From contig JAGYIP010000008.1 of NCBI GenBank assembly GCA_018402635.1, positions 372,001-436,000 of the forward strand: a DNA stretch of 64,000 nucleotides, written 5' to 3'. The position numbers and the translations under genes are program-made. The notes under the pieces were generated by a model. That model searched no databases and was not told the DNA's origin. It saw nothing but the letters and a program-made list of their open reading frames with translations. The first letter of the stretch is position 1; every line of letters begins with the position of its first letter. This DNA comes from Burkholderiaceae bacterium. Lineage in GTDB: Bacteria > Pseudomonadota > Gammaproteobacteria > Burkholderiales > Burkholderiaceae_A. Below, piece by piece: positions 1,809 through 13,970 of the stretch.

Positions 1809-1827
1809 ATTATGCCGGCCGTACAAT
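1809..1827. promoter_or_regulatory. Divergent -10-like elements for the mpl-adjacent gene and mpl
   Basis: The two genes are separated by only 30 bases. On the minus strand CATAAT (1814-1809) ends 6 bases before the ATG at 1802; on the plus strand TACAAT (1822-1827) ends 5 bases before the ATG at 1833. With usual initiation 6-8 bases after the -10 element both transcripts would begin at or near the start codon. No Shine-Dalgarno fits in the gap. This is an inference from spacing; no good -35 was identified. Confidence 0.5.
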
Positions 1828-1832
1828 GGCTC

Positions 1833-3260
1833 ATGCATATTCATATCCTTGGTATCTGTGGCACCTTTATGGGCGGGCTTGCACAGCTCGCGCGGGCTGC
1901 GGGTTTCCGGGTTACGGGCTGCGACACCCAGGTCTACCCACCCATGAGCGAGCAGCTTCGCCTTGCGGGCATTGAGCTTGTTGAAGGCTTTGAGGCCGAC
2001 CAGCTTGGCCTGCAGCCCGATCTTTTTGTTGTGGGCAATGTGGCGCGTCGAGGCCTGCCACTTGTTGAAGCCATTTTGAATAAGCGCCTTGCCATGACCT
2101 CGGGCCCCGCGTTTCTCTCCGAGCATCTGCTTGGCAGTCAGCCCGTCGTTGCAGTGGCCGGCACCCACGGCAAGACCACAACCACAGCCCTTATTGCCTA
2201 CCTGCTCGATGCCTGCGGACGCGAGCCCGGCTTTTTGGTGGGGGGCGTCCCGGAAAACTTTGGGGTCTCGGCGCGGCTTGCTGCGCCTGGGGCCCCCTTT
2301 GTTCTTGAGGCCGACGAATACGACACCGCCTTTTTTGACAAGCGCTCGAAGTTCTTGCACTACCGAGCGCAGGTTGCTGTCCTTAACAACCTAGAGTTTG
2401 ATCACGCCGACATCTTCGCCGACCTTGCAGCCATCGAGACCCAGTTTCATCACTGGGTCCGAACCCTGCCTTCCGAGGGGCGCCTCGTGGTGCATGCCCA
2501 GGAGCCCGCCATCGACCGTGTGCTTGCCAGGGGGTGTTACACGCCGGTCTGGCGGTTTGATGCGGAATCCGATTGGCCGGCGACTGGTCTTGATTTCATT
2601 GTGCGGCCCGTTCAGGCCGATGCCACCACCAACAATGCAGCCCAGGCCGACCTGCAAGAGCTTGAAGAACTTGAACTCTGGCGCGATGGCCACTGCCTTG
2701 GCCAGGCAAGCAGTCCCCTGTGGGGTCTGCATAACCGGCGCAACCTGGCGGCGGCTCTGACGGCCGTGAGCGCCCTGGGCCTTGATCCGGTTGAAGCCTT
2801 TGAGGCAGTCAAGGGGTTTAAGGGCATTAAGCGTCGCATGCAGCAACGGGGCGAGGCCGCAGGTGTTCGGGTCTTTGACGACTTTGCGCACCATCCCACG
2901 GCCATTGCCACAACCGTTCAAGCCCTTCGGGCGCATTTGCCCAAAGCAGCGAGGCTGCTGGCGGTGCTAGAACCCCGCTCCAACACCATGAAGATGGGGC
3001 TTATGCGCGGGCAGCTTGCCCAATCCCTTGCCCAGGCCGACCAGGTGTTTGGCTACAGCCGCGGCCTTGACTGGAGCCTTCAAGAGGCGCTGGCAGGCCT
3101 TCGTCCGCAGGCCTTTGTCAGCGATGACATCACCGGGCTTGTTGCCAGCATTGTTCAACAGGCGCGACCGGGTGATGCGGTTTTAGTGATGAGTAACGGG
3201 GGCTTTGAGGGCATTCACGAGCGACTTCTGCAGGGCCTTACCCAGGCAGCGGCCTGCTAG
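1833..3260 (+). CDS. mpl: UDP-N-acetylmuramate:L-alanyl-gamma-D-glutamyl-meso-diaminopimelate ligase
   Basis: A Mur-ligase family protein of about 475 residues that re-attaches recycled tripeptide to UDP-MurNAc in peptidoglycan recycling. It begins MHIHILGICGTFMGGLAQLA, typical of Mpl rather than MurC. The ATP loop is VAVAGTHGKTTTTALIAYLL (about residue 110), followed by LEADEYDTAFFDKRSKFLHY, LNNLEFDHADIF and a C-terminal FDDFAHHPTAI segment. The ATG at 1833 is preferred over the track start at 1812 because it matches the family N-terminus and sits just after a TACAAT box. anmK at 26 kb belongs to the same recycling theme. Confidence 0.95.
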   Translation: MHIHILGICGTFMGGLAQLARAAGFRVTGCDTQVYPPMSEQLRLAGIELVEGFEADQLGLQPDLFVVGNVARRGLPLVEAILNKRLAMTSGPAFLSEHLLGSQPVVAVAGTHGKTTTTALIAYLLDACGREPGFLVGGVPENFGVSARLAAPGAPFVLEADEYDTAFFDKRSKFLHYRAQVAVLNNLEFDHADIFADLAAIETQFHHWVRTLPSEGRLVVHAQEPAIDRVLARGCYTPVWRFDAESDWPATGLDFIVRPVQADATTNNAAQADLQELEELELWRDGHCLGQASSPLWGLHNRRNLAAALTAVSALGLDPVEAFEAVKGFKGIKRRMQQRGEAAGVRVFDDFAHHPTAIATTVQALRAHLPKAARLLAVLEPRSNTMKMGLMRGQLAQSLAQADQVFGYSRGLDWSLQEALAGLRPQAFVSDDITGLVASIVQQARPGDAVLVMSNGGFEGIHERLLQGLTQAAAC

Positions 3261-3262
3261 CC

Positions 3263-6129
3263 ATGAACTGGTTTTTTGAAGACTCGGGCCAGCTGAAGGT
3301 GGCGCGCCAAGTCTCCGAGGCGCCCGCGAGCCTGCAGCTTGAACTTGGTTCAGGTCGTCGGCTGAAGGTCAAGCGTACCCAGTGCCTTCTTGCCTTTTCA
3401 GAGCCCGACCTCGAGGGCTTTTTCAGCAGGCCCAGGACAAGGCCAACGCGCTTGAGGCCGATTTTCTATGGCAGTGCGCGCCGGCCGATGAGTTCGCTTT
3501 TCAAGACTTTGCAAAAGACGTCTTTGGCAGCGAAGGCGGCAGTGCACTTGATCAGGCAAGCCTTCTTCTTGCCCTGCATGCCGCACCCGTTTATTTTCAG
3601 CGCAAGGGCAAGGGGCTCTTTCGGGCCATGCCCGAGGAGTCTCTAAAGGCTGCGCTCGCAGGCATTGAGAGGCGACGGCTTGCTGCCGAGCGTCAGGCCC
3701 AGATGAAGCAGCAGCTCCTAGATGGGCAACTGCCCGAGGCGCTTGCAGCCCTTGGGCTCGATTTGCTTATTCGGCCCGATAAGCAATCGGTGGAATACAA
3801 GGCACTGGAGCAGGCGGCCTTTGAATGCCAGAGCAGTCTCGAGCAGCTTGCCCTGCAACGCGGTCTTCTGCCATCGGCCTACAGCCTTCACCGGGCTCGC
3901 TTCATGGCCCAGGGTCTGCACCATGCCGCAAACGACGCGCCAGCCAATTCCCAACAGGCCATCGCCGACTGCCTAAGTCGTCGAGACGACCTGCTGGCAA
4001 GCCTACCCTTGGCATCAAGCCCCGCCTATTCCCTTGATGATGCGGCAACCACCGAGGTCGATGACGCCCTTTCGTATGAAGCCTTGCCCAGCGGGGGCCT
4101 TCGGGTGGGGGTGCATATTGCTGCGCCGGGCCTTGCCATTGAGCCCGGCTCGCTGCTTGGCCAGTGGGCGCGCGAGCGGGCATCCACCGTCTACTTCCCC
4201 GGCGAGAAACTCACGATGCTTCCGGCCGATGTCATTGATGTCTATTCGCTCAATGAGGGCCGCGAAAACCCTTGCCTATCGCTCTACCTTGAGTTTGATG
4301 ATCAGGGCCAACGCACAGGCATCACCACGCGCATCGAGAAGGTCTTCATTGCCAAAAACCTTCGGCACGATCCTTGGCCTGACCTTCTGCAGCAATGGTC
4401 GGGGCTTGCGCCTTTGCTTGAGCAGGCTTGCCGTCTTCGTGCGCAGCGCGAACAGGCTCGCGGCCGACCCGAACCCACAGGCCGGGTGGACTTCTCGGTG
4501 CAGGTGCAATGGGATCAGATGCTTGACCCCGCCAAGGCTAAGCAGCTTGGCCAGGGTCGGCCCGAGATTCACCTACGGCCCCGCGACAATGAAATCGATC
4601 GCCTGGTCTCGGAATGGATGATCGCCACCAATGTCGCCTGGGGGGAGACGCTGGCGCTTGCGCATCTGCCGGGCATTTACCGCTGCCAGTCGATGGGTCG
4701 TGTGCGTATGCAGACAGGGCCTGGCCCTCACCAGGGCATGGGTGTCAGCCACTATGCCTGGTCCACGTCGCCCCTTCGACGTTTCAGTGACCTGATGAAC
4801 CAGTGGCAGGTCTTGGCCGCGCTTGGCCATCGTCGGCCAGCCTATAAGCCAAACGATACCGAGCTCTTTGCTGACCTCGCTCATTTTGAGGCCTGCTACG
4901 ACCGCTACGGCGAGTTTCAAAACCAGATGGAGCGCTATTGGAGCCTGCGCTGGCTGGGGATGGAGCAAGGCCTTGCCACCGAGTCTTGGCTTGCCGCCCA
5001 GCGGCCCATGGCCTCAGAGCCCTTGATCGAGCAGGGTCGTCTCGGGCGCGAGGGTCTGGTGCGCCTTGCACGACTGCCTTTAACTTCTCGCGTGCCGTCT
5101 TGGTCGCATCTGCCTGCGGGCACCGAGGTGACGCTTGAGGTCATTGGTGCCGATGCTCTGAGCTGTGAGCTTGAGGTGCGCGGCCTTCAGGCGCAAACCC
5201 AAGACACGCCGCTGCAGCTTGCGGTTCTGGGCAGCCCCATTTCGCACAGCCGCTCACCGGCTATCCATGCAGCCTTTGCCCAGGAGCTTGGCATTGCCGT
5301 CAGTTATACCGCCATCGACACCCCATCGGCAGAGCTTAGGGCCCGACTTCAGGCGCTCCACAGCCAAGGCTATGCGGGCTTAAACCTTACCGTGCCGCTT
5401 AAGGAGGAGGTCTATGCCCTTGCCTTAACCGAAGGCTGGCCGATGTCCGAACGTGCTCAGAAGGCCCAGGCTATTAACACGCTCATTCGAGAATCCTCGG
5501 GCTGGCGAGCAGATAACACCGATGGCCTTGGCCTTGTCCGCGATCTGCTTAGGCATCTGCAGGCAGAAAACCTTGCAGGCCATCGGCTGCTGCTGATTGG
5601 TGCCGGTGGCGCCGCGCGCGGCGTGGTTCTTCCTCTACTGCAGGCCGGCCTTGATGAACTGGTTATTGCCAACCGCAGCCCTGAAAAGGCCCATGCGCTT
5701 GTTGAGGCCTATACCAAGGCCTATCTGTTGGCAGGCAATGGCGAGGCCGCTCAGTTAAGCATTGCAGGCCGTGCCGTGGATGCCCCTGCGCCCCTTCTTC
5801 ATGCCCTTAGCCTTGAGGCACTTGCTCAGCCCCTGGCGCTCAATTCGCCGCCAACGCTTATTGTGAATGCCTCTGCCTCAAGTCTGCAGCAGGCCGTGCT
5901 GAACCTGCATCCCAGTCTTTTTGAGCAGACAACCCTTGCCCTTGACATGATGTATGGGCCTGCGGCCGAGCATTTTCTTGGCCTTGCCCAGAAGGCAGGC
6001 GTTGGCCTTGCCCTTGACGGCCTCGGCATGCTTGTGGAGCAGGCTGCCGTTGCCTTTGAGCTCTGGACGGGCCAGTCACCCTCCACCGACCCAGTGCTTG
6101 CCCTGCTCAAAAGCCAAGCCCCTCACTAA
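3263..6129 (+). CDS. RNB-family exoribonuclease fused to shikimate dehydrogenase (one apparent frameshift)
   Basis: The real start is ATG 3263 (MNWFFEDSGQLKVARQ, the N-terminus of the betaproteobacterial RNB proteins). This frame leads to position about 3420, then the reading frame moves to the 915-residue ORF; adding one T to the T5 run at 3419-3423 restores one protein of about 955 residues. Residues about 250-560 form the RNB domain with the acidic cluster DDAATTEVDDALS and later RFSDLMNQWQ. From about residue 652 a complete shikimate dehydrogenase follows without stop: SPISHSRSPAIHA, LNLTVPLKEEV, NTDGLGLV and the NADPH loop GAGGAARG. RNase II-type enzymes degrade RNA 3' to 5'; AroE reduces 3-dehydroshikimate. 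In relatives rnb and aroE are adjacent separate genes, so this is a fusion. A GTG near 5175 could give separate AroE. Confidence 0.88.
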
Positions 6130-6149: not shown

Positions 6150-7667
6150 ATGAGCCCGACCTTGCCCCCTTCTGCTGCTGACCCCAAGGACGACCTCGAG
6201 TCCTCCAAGGTTATTGGCCCGCGCGAGCCCGAGGCCGCTCAGCATGCCCTTGAGGAGATTCAATTACTTTTTGCACGCTTTCGGCTTGAGACAGGGCTTG
6301 TACAAAAAGAGAAGTCGGGGGGCGAGTCCGACCGTCAGCAGCTTGTCGAGCAGCTTGTTGTTCGCCAGCAGCAGTCAGCCCTTCTTCCCAAGATTCGCCC
6401 ACTTCATGCAGCAGACCTTGCCTATGTGCTTGAGGCACTTCCGCGGGAGCAGCGCGAGAAGGTCTGGCATCTTGTTGCCGAGCAACGACGCGGTGAGGTG
6501 ATGGTGGAGCTCAACGAGGCGGTGCGTGCAAGCCTTATCGCCGAGACCAGTCGCGAAGCCCTTCTGCGAATTGCCCAGTCCTTAGAGCCCGATGACTTGG
6601 CCGCCTTGGCCGATGAGCTTCCCTTTGACATTGTCGAGCGGGTTCGACAGGGCCTGACCATTGAAGAGCGCGAGCAGCTTCGTCATGCCATGTCGTACTC
6701 GGAAGACAGCGTTGGCGCACGCATGGATTTTGAGATGGTGACCATTCGCGATGATGTAAGCCTTGAGGTTGTGCTGCGCTACCTTCGCCGGTTTGATGAA
6801 CTGCCCGACCATACCGATCAGGTCTTTGTTGTTGACCGCAAAGAGTTGCTTCTTGGCGCCCTGCCCATCGGCCAGCTTCTGGTCAATGAGCCCGAGTCCC
6901 TGGTGTCGGAGGTCATGCGCCGCGACATCTTGTCGCTCAATGCCCGTGACGATGCCTATGATGCCGCCCAGGCCTTTGAGCGCTACGACCTTGTCTCGGC
7001 GCCGGTGGTCAACGACCAAGGCAAGCTTATCGGGCGACTTACGGTGTCTGAGGCCGTTGATCTTATTCGCGAAGAGAGCGACTCCGAGGTGCTTGCCCAG
7101 GCGGGCCTGCGTGAGGAGGAAGATCTCTTTTCCTCGGTCTGGGCCTCGGCAAAAAACCGATGGCTCTGGCTTGGTCTGAACCTTTGCACGGCCTTTTTTG
7201 CCTCCAGGGTGATTGGCGCCTTCGAGGGCACCATTGAGCGCGTGGTGGCGCTTGCAGCCCTTATGCCCATTGTTGCGGGCATCGCAGGCAACACGGGCAA
7301 TCAGACCATGACACTTTTTATTCGGTCCCTTGCATTGGGGCAGGTCAATGCGGGCAATCTGACTCGGCTGCTGGCAAAAGAACTCTCGATTGCCGGGCTC
7401 AATGGCCTTGTCTGGGGCTCGGTGGCAGGCCTTTTCGCCTGGTGGCTCTACAGCGAGACCGACAACGGCCTGCTTCTTGGCATCACCATGATGCTTGCTA
7501 TTTTGCTCAACCTGTTGGTGGCTGCACTTATTGCTATTTTTGTTCCCATGTCTTTGCACCGAATGGGCCGCGACCCCGCCCTGGGCTCCTCGGTGTTGCT
7601 TACCTTTAGCACCGACTCCTTGGGCTTCTTCATCTTTTTGGGGCTTGCCAGTCTCTTCTTTGGCTAG
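6150..7667 (+). CDS. mgtE: MgtE-family magnesium transporter
   Basis: A 505-residue inner-membrane protein of usual MgtE length. The N-terminal cytoplasmic superhelical domain (about 30-160) includes LRPLHAADLAYVLEALP, a CBS pair follows (about 175-300, for example VSEVMRRDILSLNARDDAYD), and the C-terminal half (about 325-505) is strongly hydrophobic with five likely membrane helices. The pore signature appears as PIVAGIAGNTGNQTMTLFIR. MgtE channels pass Mg2+ into the cell and are gated by Mg2+ bound to the cytoplasmic domains. It starts 20 bases after the aroE stop and may be cotranscribed with the fusion gene. Confidence 0.95.
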   Translation: MSPTLPPSAADPKDDLESSKVIGPREPEAAQHALEEIQLLFARFRLETGLVQKEKSGGESDRQQLVEQLVVRQQQSALLPKIRPLHAADLAYVLEALPREQREKVWHLVAEQRRGEVMVELNEAVRASLIAETSREALLRIAQSLEPDDLAALADELPFDIVERVRQGLTIEEREQLRHAMSYSEDSVGARMDFEMVTIRDDVSLEVVLRYLRRFDELPDHTDQVFVVDRKELLLGALPIGQLLVNEPESLVSEVMRRDILSLNARDDAYDAAQAFERYDLVSAPVVNDQGKLIGRLTVSEAVDLIREESDSEVLAQAGLREEEDLFSSVWASAKNRWLWLGLNLCTAFFASRVIGAFEGTIERVVALAALMPIVAGIAGNTGNQTMTLFIRSLALGQVNAGNLTRLLAKELSIAGLNGLVWGSVAGLFAWWLYSETDNGLLLGITMMLAILLNLLVAALIAIFVPMSLHRMGRDPALGSSVLLTFSTDSLGFFIFLGLASLFFG

Positions 7668-11185: not shown

Positions 11186-13970
11186 CTAGCTCGGCTTACC
11201 GCGAATCTCTGAAAGGCTTCGAATAACGTTCGGCGCCTTGTCAAAGACCTCTTGCCAGAGGTCTTTGACGGCCTGGCGGTCGGCCTCAAAGGCATCGGGT
11301 GCCACCCTTGCCGAGCTTGCGCCTGCCAGTCGAAGCCTGTGCTGGGACCTGCGAAATCGCCGGTAGGCCTCGGCAACTTTTTGCGCCTTTTCTGCTTCAA
11401 CGAGCCCAAGCCCGGCCGCAATGGTGAGAAGGGCAATATTTCCCAGGTTGCCCGTAAGCTCGGCATGGGCATGGCTGTGTTCAAGCACCAGCGCCTGCAC
11501 CATAAACTCAATATCCACCATGCCGGCTCGGTCGTGTTTAAGGTCGAACTGGCCGCTTGGGTTGGGATGGCCATCGTGCATGCGCCTGCGCATGGCAAGA
11601 ATTTCTTCCTGCAGGGCCTGGGGCTGGCGGGGCTGCCGAAGAATCTGAATGCGAGCCTGCTCAAAGGCCTGCCCAATGGCGGCGTCACCCGCGCAGAACC
11701 GGGCGCGGGTTAGGGCCTGATGCTCCCAGACCCAGGCACGCTTTTCCTGGTAGTCGATAAAGCCGGGCAGGTCGGTCACAAGCAGACCCGCATTGCCATT
11801 GGGCCGCAGACGCAGGTCAATCTCAAAGAGGCTGCCGGCCGCCGTATTGGTGGACAGCCAGACATTGATGCGTTTGGCCAGTCGTGCATAGACCTCCTGG
11901 GCCATGTCATCGGTGTCGTTGTGAAGAAAAATCAGGTCGAGGTCGGAGGCGTAACCCAGTTCTTTTCCGCCAAGCTTGCCGTAGGCAATAACGGCGAACT
12001 GCGGGTCCTGCCGGTGACGCCGGGGCGTGGCCTTCCAGGCCGAGCGCAGCGTGGCATCAATCATGACATCGGCAAGACCGGAGAGTCGATCGGAGAGATG
12101 CTCCACCGAAAGCAGACCATCAAGGTCCTGAACCAATAAGCGAAAAAGCTGGCCATGGTGCGTCTCGCGCAAAATATCCATCTGCCGCTCAACATCAGGC
12201 TCGCCATTGAGCTGGGCATCCTCAAGGCTGGCATGAAGCTGGACTGCCAGCCGGTCGAGGTCGCCCGCCTCGTCAAGACCACGGCGGTCAAGCAGCTCAT
12301 CGAGAACAATAGGATGGCGTTGCATGTACGAGGCAGCCCAGGACGATGTCGCCATGACCTTGGCCACACGCTCGAGTGTCTCGGGGTACTCATCGAAAAG
12401 GGCGAGGTAAGAACTGCGTCTGCGCAGACTGTCGAGAAGTTCGTTAAGCCCGCGCTCAAGCCTCTGTGCGTCGGCATGTTCTCTGACAATTGCCTTGATG
12501 CGTAGGCGCAGTCGTTCTAGCCGGCTGTCTGCGTCATTTGCCCGTGGCGTGGGAGGCTCCGACCCTGGCGCAGTCTCGCCGAAGTTGTCGGCGTCTTTTG
12601 TTTCGGAGGCTATTTTGTCGAGCCCCGGGGCCTCCTTACGAAAAAGCTTTTCAAAAATGGGAATGACATGCGAGCGGTGTGCTTCTATTTTCAAGCAAAG
12701 CGCCTCGGCGGATTCAAGCCCCATGGCTTGCGCCATTTTTGAGTAGGCCTTTGCAGAGCCCGACAGCACATGCGTCTGGGCATCCTCTTCGTACTGCAGT
12801 CGATGTTCAAGCCGTCGCCAGAACTCGTAGGCCGCGCAGAGATCAAGGTATTCCTTCTCGCTGATACGAGCCTGGTCACGAAGAAGCTTTAAAACCTCAA
12901 GGCAGACCCGAGACTGCAGCGCAGGGTCGCGTCCCCCTCGAATAAGCTGAAAGAGCTGGCCGATGAACTCAATTTCGCGAATCCCGCCTGGCCCTAGCTT
13001 GACGTCCACCATCTCGTAGTCGCCTGCCATACGGGCCTCCCGACGCTGACTGCGTCGCTGGGCCTCTTCACGAATCTGGCCATGCAGGTCGCGCAGGGCG
13101 GCAAGGGCGTTGAAGTCAAGGTAGCGACGAAAGACAAAAGGCCGACGAATGGTCTCAAGCAGCCGGGCATCTTTTTCAAACTGGTCCTGCTCGCTTAGCA
13201 CGGCCTTGTTGACGAGCCGCGCCTTAATCCATGCGTAGCGTTCCCACTCCCTGCCGTAACGAATCAGGTAGTTCTCGAGCATCTCGAGACTGCAGACCAC
13301 AGGGCCCTGAGTCGCCATGCGGTCGCAGTCTTAAATCCACGCGAAAGACAAGGCCGTCGGCAGTGGATTCACCAAGCAGGCCCGCCAGTCGGCGGCCAAG
13401 CCTTGTGAAGTAGGTCTGAAGATCAAGTGCCCCGCCTGGCCCGTCGGGATGATCTTTGGGGCGGCCATCGGACTGCCCTTCGTCTGCAAGCAGGTAAATG
13501 AGGTCGATGTCCGAGGAGGCATTAAGCTCGTACCCGCCAAGCTTTCCCATACCCACAATCAAAAGGTCAACGGCTTCGCCCGTTGTCCGACGGGCAACAC
13601 CGTGACGGCTAACCATGGCCTGGCAGCAATGCTGGTAGCCCAGGTTGAGGCAGATCTCGGCAAGGTCTGAGATGCTTTGTAGATTCTCATGCAGGTCCGA
13701 GAGTCCGCCCAAGTCTCGGGCCATAATAGCCAGCATGACCGCATTTCGATACTGACGAAGGGCCTGTGCAAACCCATTGTCTGCAGTGTCCGACAGCCCA
13801 GCAGCCAAGGCCTCAGGCCAGTGCCGATGCCAATGGTCTTGAAGAACCGGCCGCGTTAGAGGGCTTTCAATGGAAAGCAGCTGATCGCGAGCCATGATCT
13901 GGGGCAGGGTTCGCCTAGCAAAGGCCGAGTGGTCAATGGCCTTTTGGTAGGCGGGCGCAAGGCAGGAAAT
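11186..13970 (-). CDS. glnE: Glutamine synthetase adenylyltransferase/adenylyl-removing enzyme (one apparent frameshift)
   Basis: Two overlapping ORFs (13224-13895 and 11186-13318) together make one GlnE of about 927 residues. The first carries LIVGMGKLGGYELNASSDID and LRLRPHGDSGP; the second continues VVCSLEMLENYLIRYGREWE and the second nucleotidyltransferase domain AVIAYGKLGGKELGYASDLD. Removing one C from the CCC at about 13304-13306 joins them. GlnE adenylylates and deadenylylates glutamine synthetase under PII control. The in-frame sequence upstream of ATG 13895 has family character (HSAFARRTLPQIM) back to an ATT codon at 13970, 7 bases after AAGGAG, so an ATT start is possible. The gene is divergent from yhdP. 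Confidence 0.88.

Follow-up and report, generated by a model that had tools for sequence, protein, structure and literature searches.

An in-frame fusion of RNB-domain and shikimate dehydrogenase (aroE) genes in two genera of a Burkholderiales family

Shikimate dehydrogenase (AroE; NF001310/PRK00258; PDB 4omu, 3pgj, and 1nyt) can occur as a free enzyme or within a longer multidomain protein, the latter in AroD-AroE (3-dehydroquinate dehydratase/shikimate dehydrogenase; NF006802, 2gpt), in the AROM polypeptide, and in a chorismate mutase-shikimate dehydrogenase (3fbt). Bacterial genes merged in frame are known generally, and the words shikimate, aroE, and ribonuclease are absent from the main text of the work that describes them (Henry et al., 2016; PMC4921024). 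A literature search found no paper on an RNase-AroE pair. The gene analyzed here lies in a window of 64,000 nucleotides, the whole stretch of DNA under study, which spans positions 372001–436000 of contig 6 in its assembly. It likewise encodes AroE as part of a longer protein; it differs from free AroE in that the enzyme is attached to the C-terminus of a predicted exoribonuclease, an RNB-AroE fusion that is apparently unreported. It belongs to a family of uncultured Burkholderiales with small genomes, within which the window's genus is here termed g1, a second genus g2, and a third g3.

The rnb-aroE fusion gene (3263–6129, forward strand, as are all features below) starts at ATG 3263, contains one frame break at 3419–3423, and continues from 3382 to 6129 as one stop-free frame of 915 codons with no stop between the RNB and AroE domains, as originally predicted and as seen in 17 other genomes. 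Profile searches of the 915-aa frame gave the domain order RNB, Shikimate_dh_N, Shikimate_DH, and SDH_C, with RNB (PF00773) matched at aa 210–437 and in a second stretch (139.4 bits, cut-off 29.3), and the three AroE profiles at aa 615–701, 727–780, and 880–909, respectively. The RNB catalytic domain, delimited by the PF00773 match and by residue invariance, occupies 4009–4824 and is followed by a beta barrel at the RNase C-terminus (aa 549–605; 5026–5196), drawn from predicted strands in an AlphaFold2 model and probably S1-like, by an inter-domain linker of about five residues (aa 606–610; 5197–5211) placed by alignment and model, and by an AroE domain (5212–6117) that is complete according to profiles, fold match, and invariant residues. 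Upstream lies mpl (UDP-N-acetylmuramate:L-alanyl-gamma-D-glutamyl-meso-DAP ligase; 1812–3260; TIGR01081, 561 bits), the stop of which is 2 nt before ATG 3263, and downstream the conserved magnesium transporter gene mgtE (6150–7667), identified by profile match and synteny. The AlphaFold2 model (pLDDT 83.5, pTM 0.58, with no inter-domain error estimate) places the last strand of the RNase barrel at residues 596–605, then five residues, and then the first AroE strand at 611–617, which suggests that two entire enzymes are linked in tandem; model confidence is low at aa 435–463 of the RNase part. A Foldseek search with the model retrieved RNase II/R structures as well as AroE structures, the latter with TMt values reaching 0.90.

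The RNase part shares with the RNase II/RNB family (PF00773) the RNB domain, the D-x5-E-x-DD cluster, and the SPLRR motif, and differs from it in lacking PF00773 profile positions 229–278, which are likewise missing from the other rnb genes in this Burkholderiales family. The nearest solved structure is the Deinococcus radiodurans RNase II family protein 2r7d (Foldseek TMt 0.75), followed by E. coli RNase II (2id0/2ix0), and in the alignment to 2id0/2r7d the acidic metal-binding cluster and the SP-x-R arginine are present, with one Asp replaced by Glu. Residues D219, E225, D227, D228, H450, R466, and R467 (915-aa numbering) are invariant in 17 aligned proteins. The RNase part scores far below the NCBIfam equivalog thresholds of both E. 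coli-type RNase II and RNase R (NF003455, 88.6 against 542; TIGR02062, 80.1 against 641.9; TIGR02063, 70.7 against 597.85). The N-terminal half is accordingly best described as a predicted RNase II-type 3'-5' exoribonuclease.

In the AroE part, PF08501, PF01488, and PF18317 all score over cut-off and NF001310 reaches 273.5 bits (cut-off 221); motifs and fold are those of free AroE (TMt 0.85–0.90), with Pseudomonas putida AroE (4omu) as the nearest solved structure. Residues S623, S625, N668, K674, N699, D714, and Q887 as well as the GAGGA motif are invariant in the 17 proteins, and we take their roles (catalytic Lys/Asp, shikimate-binding S-x-S/Asn, and C-terminal Gln) to be those of E. coli AroE. 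An extra loop of about 20–25 residues between the Rossmann and C-terminal parts (AroE aa ~776–816; window 5707–5830), partly of low model confidence, occurs in the window and in its closest relative, G006, and is missing from most other relatives. The dN/dS ratios are 0.06–0.13 for the RNB part and 0.05–0.20 for the AroE part, synonymous change being close to saturated for pairs at greater distance, and both parts are thus under purifying selection (dN/dS about 0.05–0.20). A second AroE was not found in any fused genome, a result that for the incomplete metagenome-assembled genomes (MAGs) rests on their more complete relatives; of the 18 fused genomes, 16 have aroC and 17 have aroB. Since the fused copy is the sole AroE and aroB and aroC are nearly always present, a working pathway would require the fused AroE to be active, and it is probably functional as a shikimate dehydrogenase.

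Searches covered 40 relatives and then all 26 genomes of the family, including G000. A protein search detected the one-frame fusion, free of internal stops, in all genomes of g1 (11/11) and g2 (7/7), between which protein identity is about 50%; one of these (G011) is a single contig of 2.05 Mb, and in another (G010) the gene is split by contig ends, with both pieces crossing the junction in frame. The search for full-length RNB-AroE proteins that had been proposed with the original prediction was therefore positive in 18/18 genomes of two genera, and none of these close relatives carries rnb and aroE as separate genes in place of the fusion. The fusion was not found in any of the eight g3 genomes. 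Across a sample of the order (300 genomes, 134 genera), junction-crossing matches were confined to g1 and g2, and the best other match ended at the RNase end; samples of the class (369 genomes) and phylum (399 genomes) gave no further junction-crossing match at E <= 1e-45, a strict limit that a very diverged fusion could escape. A search of a plasmid collection also yielded no RNB-AroE fusion. Judged from these sequences, the RNB-AroE fusion is genuine, fixed, and clade-specific.

The family locus has the order mpl-rnb-aroE-mgtE, with mpl as the upstream neighbor in all three genera. Two g3 genomes (G024 and G041) hold rnb and aroE as separate neighbors between mpl and mgtE, and their rnb-aroE spacer is normal, containing stop codons and an ATG from which aroE itself starts, whereas in five other g3 loci (L143, L144, L147, L148, and L149) rnb is gone, which leaves aroE immediately after mpl. 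By RNB-domain count, six of the eight g3 genomes hold only an RNase R-like gene without rnb, and fused genomes generally hold an RNase R-like gene in addition to the fusion; in G000 and G006, both incomplete, the fusion is the only RNB gene found. The expectation that rnb and aroE are normally separate and adjacent in Burkholderiales was borne out as to their separateness and not as to their adjacency, as most sampled loci have about 850–900 nt between them, occupied in the three loci checked by a gene for a TonB-C-terminal protein. A record titled Pantoea sp. 18069 (L092) has an rnb-(gap)-aroE locus like that of Burkholderiales, which suggests a mislabelled or contaminated genome. In a Betaproteobacteria MAG (L025; VGHR01000025, 7926–7953), rnb and aroE lie next to each other in one frame, with one TAG and a few bases between them and the usual TonB-like gene missing. 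This locus is a near-fusion of independent origin; it was rejected as a precursor of the present fusion because in trees both its AroE and its RNB sequence fall among those of other Burkholderiales.

The survival of unfused, adjacent rnb and aroE in G024 and G041 supports a merger of neighbors and agrees with the earlier proposal that the fusion arose by loss of a stop between them. Under the preferred account, the stop codon and spacer that separated the operon neighbors rnb and aroE would have disappeared in the common ancestor of g1 and g2, and the merged gene would encode one polypeptide of about 950 residues with an N-terminal exoribonuclease and the sole shikimate dehydrogenase at its C-terminus. 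The two halves would fold and work separately, and the merger would have been near-neutral and not selected for coupling. As a whole, this account, in which one merger of neighbors yields a bifunctional protein of that length and both enzymes work, is considered likely; we infer from sequence that cells produce the whole protein, that each half is active, and that merging was near-neutral.

One frame may nevertheless give rise to two proteins, with AroE made also or mainly from an internal start, so that free AroE would be the working enzyme and the fusion product a minor one, and this reading keeps a real if lesser probability. A GTG near 5175 had been proposed as a separate aroE start, a suggestion that did not hold for the window: the in-frame GTG (5176–5178) lies within the last strand of the RNase, its Shine-Dalgarno energy ranks 11/43 among in-frame starts (relatives 29/43, 31/49, and 23/37), and the Shine-Dalgarno sequence is not conserved. 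The case for free AroE comes from g2, where six of the seven genomes have an in-frame ATG 6–7 codons before the AVLG motif, the place at which separate aroE genes begin, and the seventh (G019) has a TTG 10 codons before it. The span between conserved anchors in the alignment is about 11 codons in g1 and about 20 in g2, the g2 linker thus being about 9 codons longer and carrying a GAGGAG-like stretch before its in-frame start, and the Shine-Dalgarno rank of this start among in-frame starts is 1/65, 2/74, 1/67, 1/77, 1/79, 1/56, and 2/64. However, the Glu codons of this stretch suffice to account for the strength of the pairing (synonymous-codon null with the protein kept, P 0.30–0.78), so that Shine-Dalgarno strength is no longer significant evidence for internal initiation of aroE, and Shine-Dalgarno sites are weak at nearby codons that are probably genuine starts in the g2 genomes themselves. 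Moreover, g1 is without the start-bearing segment and most g1 genes are without a plausible start; for example, the g1 genome G003 has no ATG, GTG, or TTG in the linker before the AroE domain. Another g1 genome, G007, does have a GTG preceded by a strong site, which may be a chance occurrence. It is plausible that the g2 internal ATG is a remnant aroE start, and part or the whole of the AroE supply could still come from separate translation, most of all in g2.

The timing of the merger was considered with gene trees. In the AroE tree, all fused genes fall on one side of one branch (support 67/69), which requires one change; the mpl tree places g3 outside g1 and g2 (support 92/89); and in the RNB tree the unfused g3 rnb genes (L145 and L146) sit on a very long branch of 3.5 changes per site, in keeping with relaxed constraint before loss. 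A single fusion on the stem of g1 and g2 would be the simplest reading, the AroE-tree support for a single origin being moderate. Alternatively, the fusion may have arisen in the ancestor of the whole family, after which g3 would have split it again and most g3 species would have lost rnb. The trees cannot separate the g1 and g2 stem from the family stem, as basal relationships are poorly resolved, and yet the earlier date demands an extra fission, and the G024 and G041 genes have a normal spacer, stop codons, and their own aroE start, which makes this order of events improbable.

A functional reason for keeping the two enzymes together, in which the tether couples RNA decay to aromatic biosynthesis, appears very unlikely, and the same low probability applies to the specific forms that it could take, such as NADP(H) or shikimate binding at AroE altering RNase activity, or AroE aiding RNase dimerization. 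Retention of the fusion in 18/18 genomes of two diverged genera, set beside the absence of an unfused RNase from six of the eight g3 genomes, speaks for coupling; the retention is also explained by attachment of the RNase to an essential AroE, and the sequence and length of the linker vary freely. We know of no pathway link between RNA decay and aromatic biosynthesis. A scheme in which NADP(H) or shikimate status sensed by AroE would set the rate of RNA decay, while the tie shields an otherwise dispensable RNase from loss of the g3 type, is speculative and hardly probable. A regulatory link between the RNase and AroE halves is given as a possible one, with the caution that the joining of two genes is not in itself proof that their products are functionally connected.

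The fusion had at first been set against a sequence artefact, and an apparent missing T had been noted in the T5 run at 3419–3423. The same stop-free junction in 17 other genomes together with constraint on both sides identifies a true fusion, and the artefact explanation was retained for the 5' frame break, where alignment confirmed that the window is one T short (T6 in G006 and G005, T7 in G010), the true start therefore being ATG 3263. When the first 23 kb were compared with syntenic relatives, other single-base frame breaks were noted near 13307, 18273, and 18536, all against G005 and the first also against G010. Four single-base breaks in genes that are intact in relatives point to assembly error, and the break at 3419–3423 is a probable instance of it in a source assembly of 1.96 Mb, 12 contigs, and 83% completeness. 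As the gene is broken by one base in the window, the assembly taken exactly does not code for the full-length protein. A sequencing or assembly artefact that joined two separate genes, although the contig does have single-base frame errors, is ruled out to near certainty by the identical junction in 17 other assemblies and remains only as the source of the 3419–3423 break.

The fusion probably brings no new mechanism; it is clean and unusual, with its before-states preserved. The family offers a series of separate neighbors, loss of rnb, fusion with a possible aroE start (g2), and fusion without one (g1), and can thereby serve as a compact natural test of neutral operon fusion and of an essential gene shielding a dispensable one. 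Annotation may label the fusion protein after only one of its halves. In AroD-AroE, AROM, and the chorismate mutase-shikimate dehydrogenase 3fbt, the partners of AroE are enzymes of the same pathway, and the AroE fusions met in the searches link steps of one pathway, whereas here an essential biosynthetic enzyme is joined to a predicted enzyme of RNA decay.
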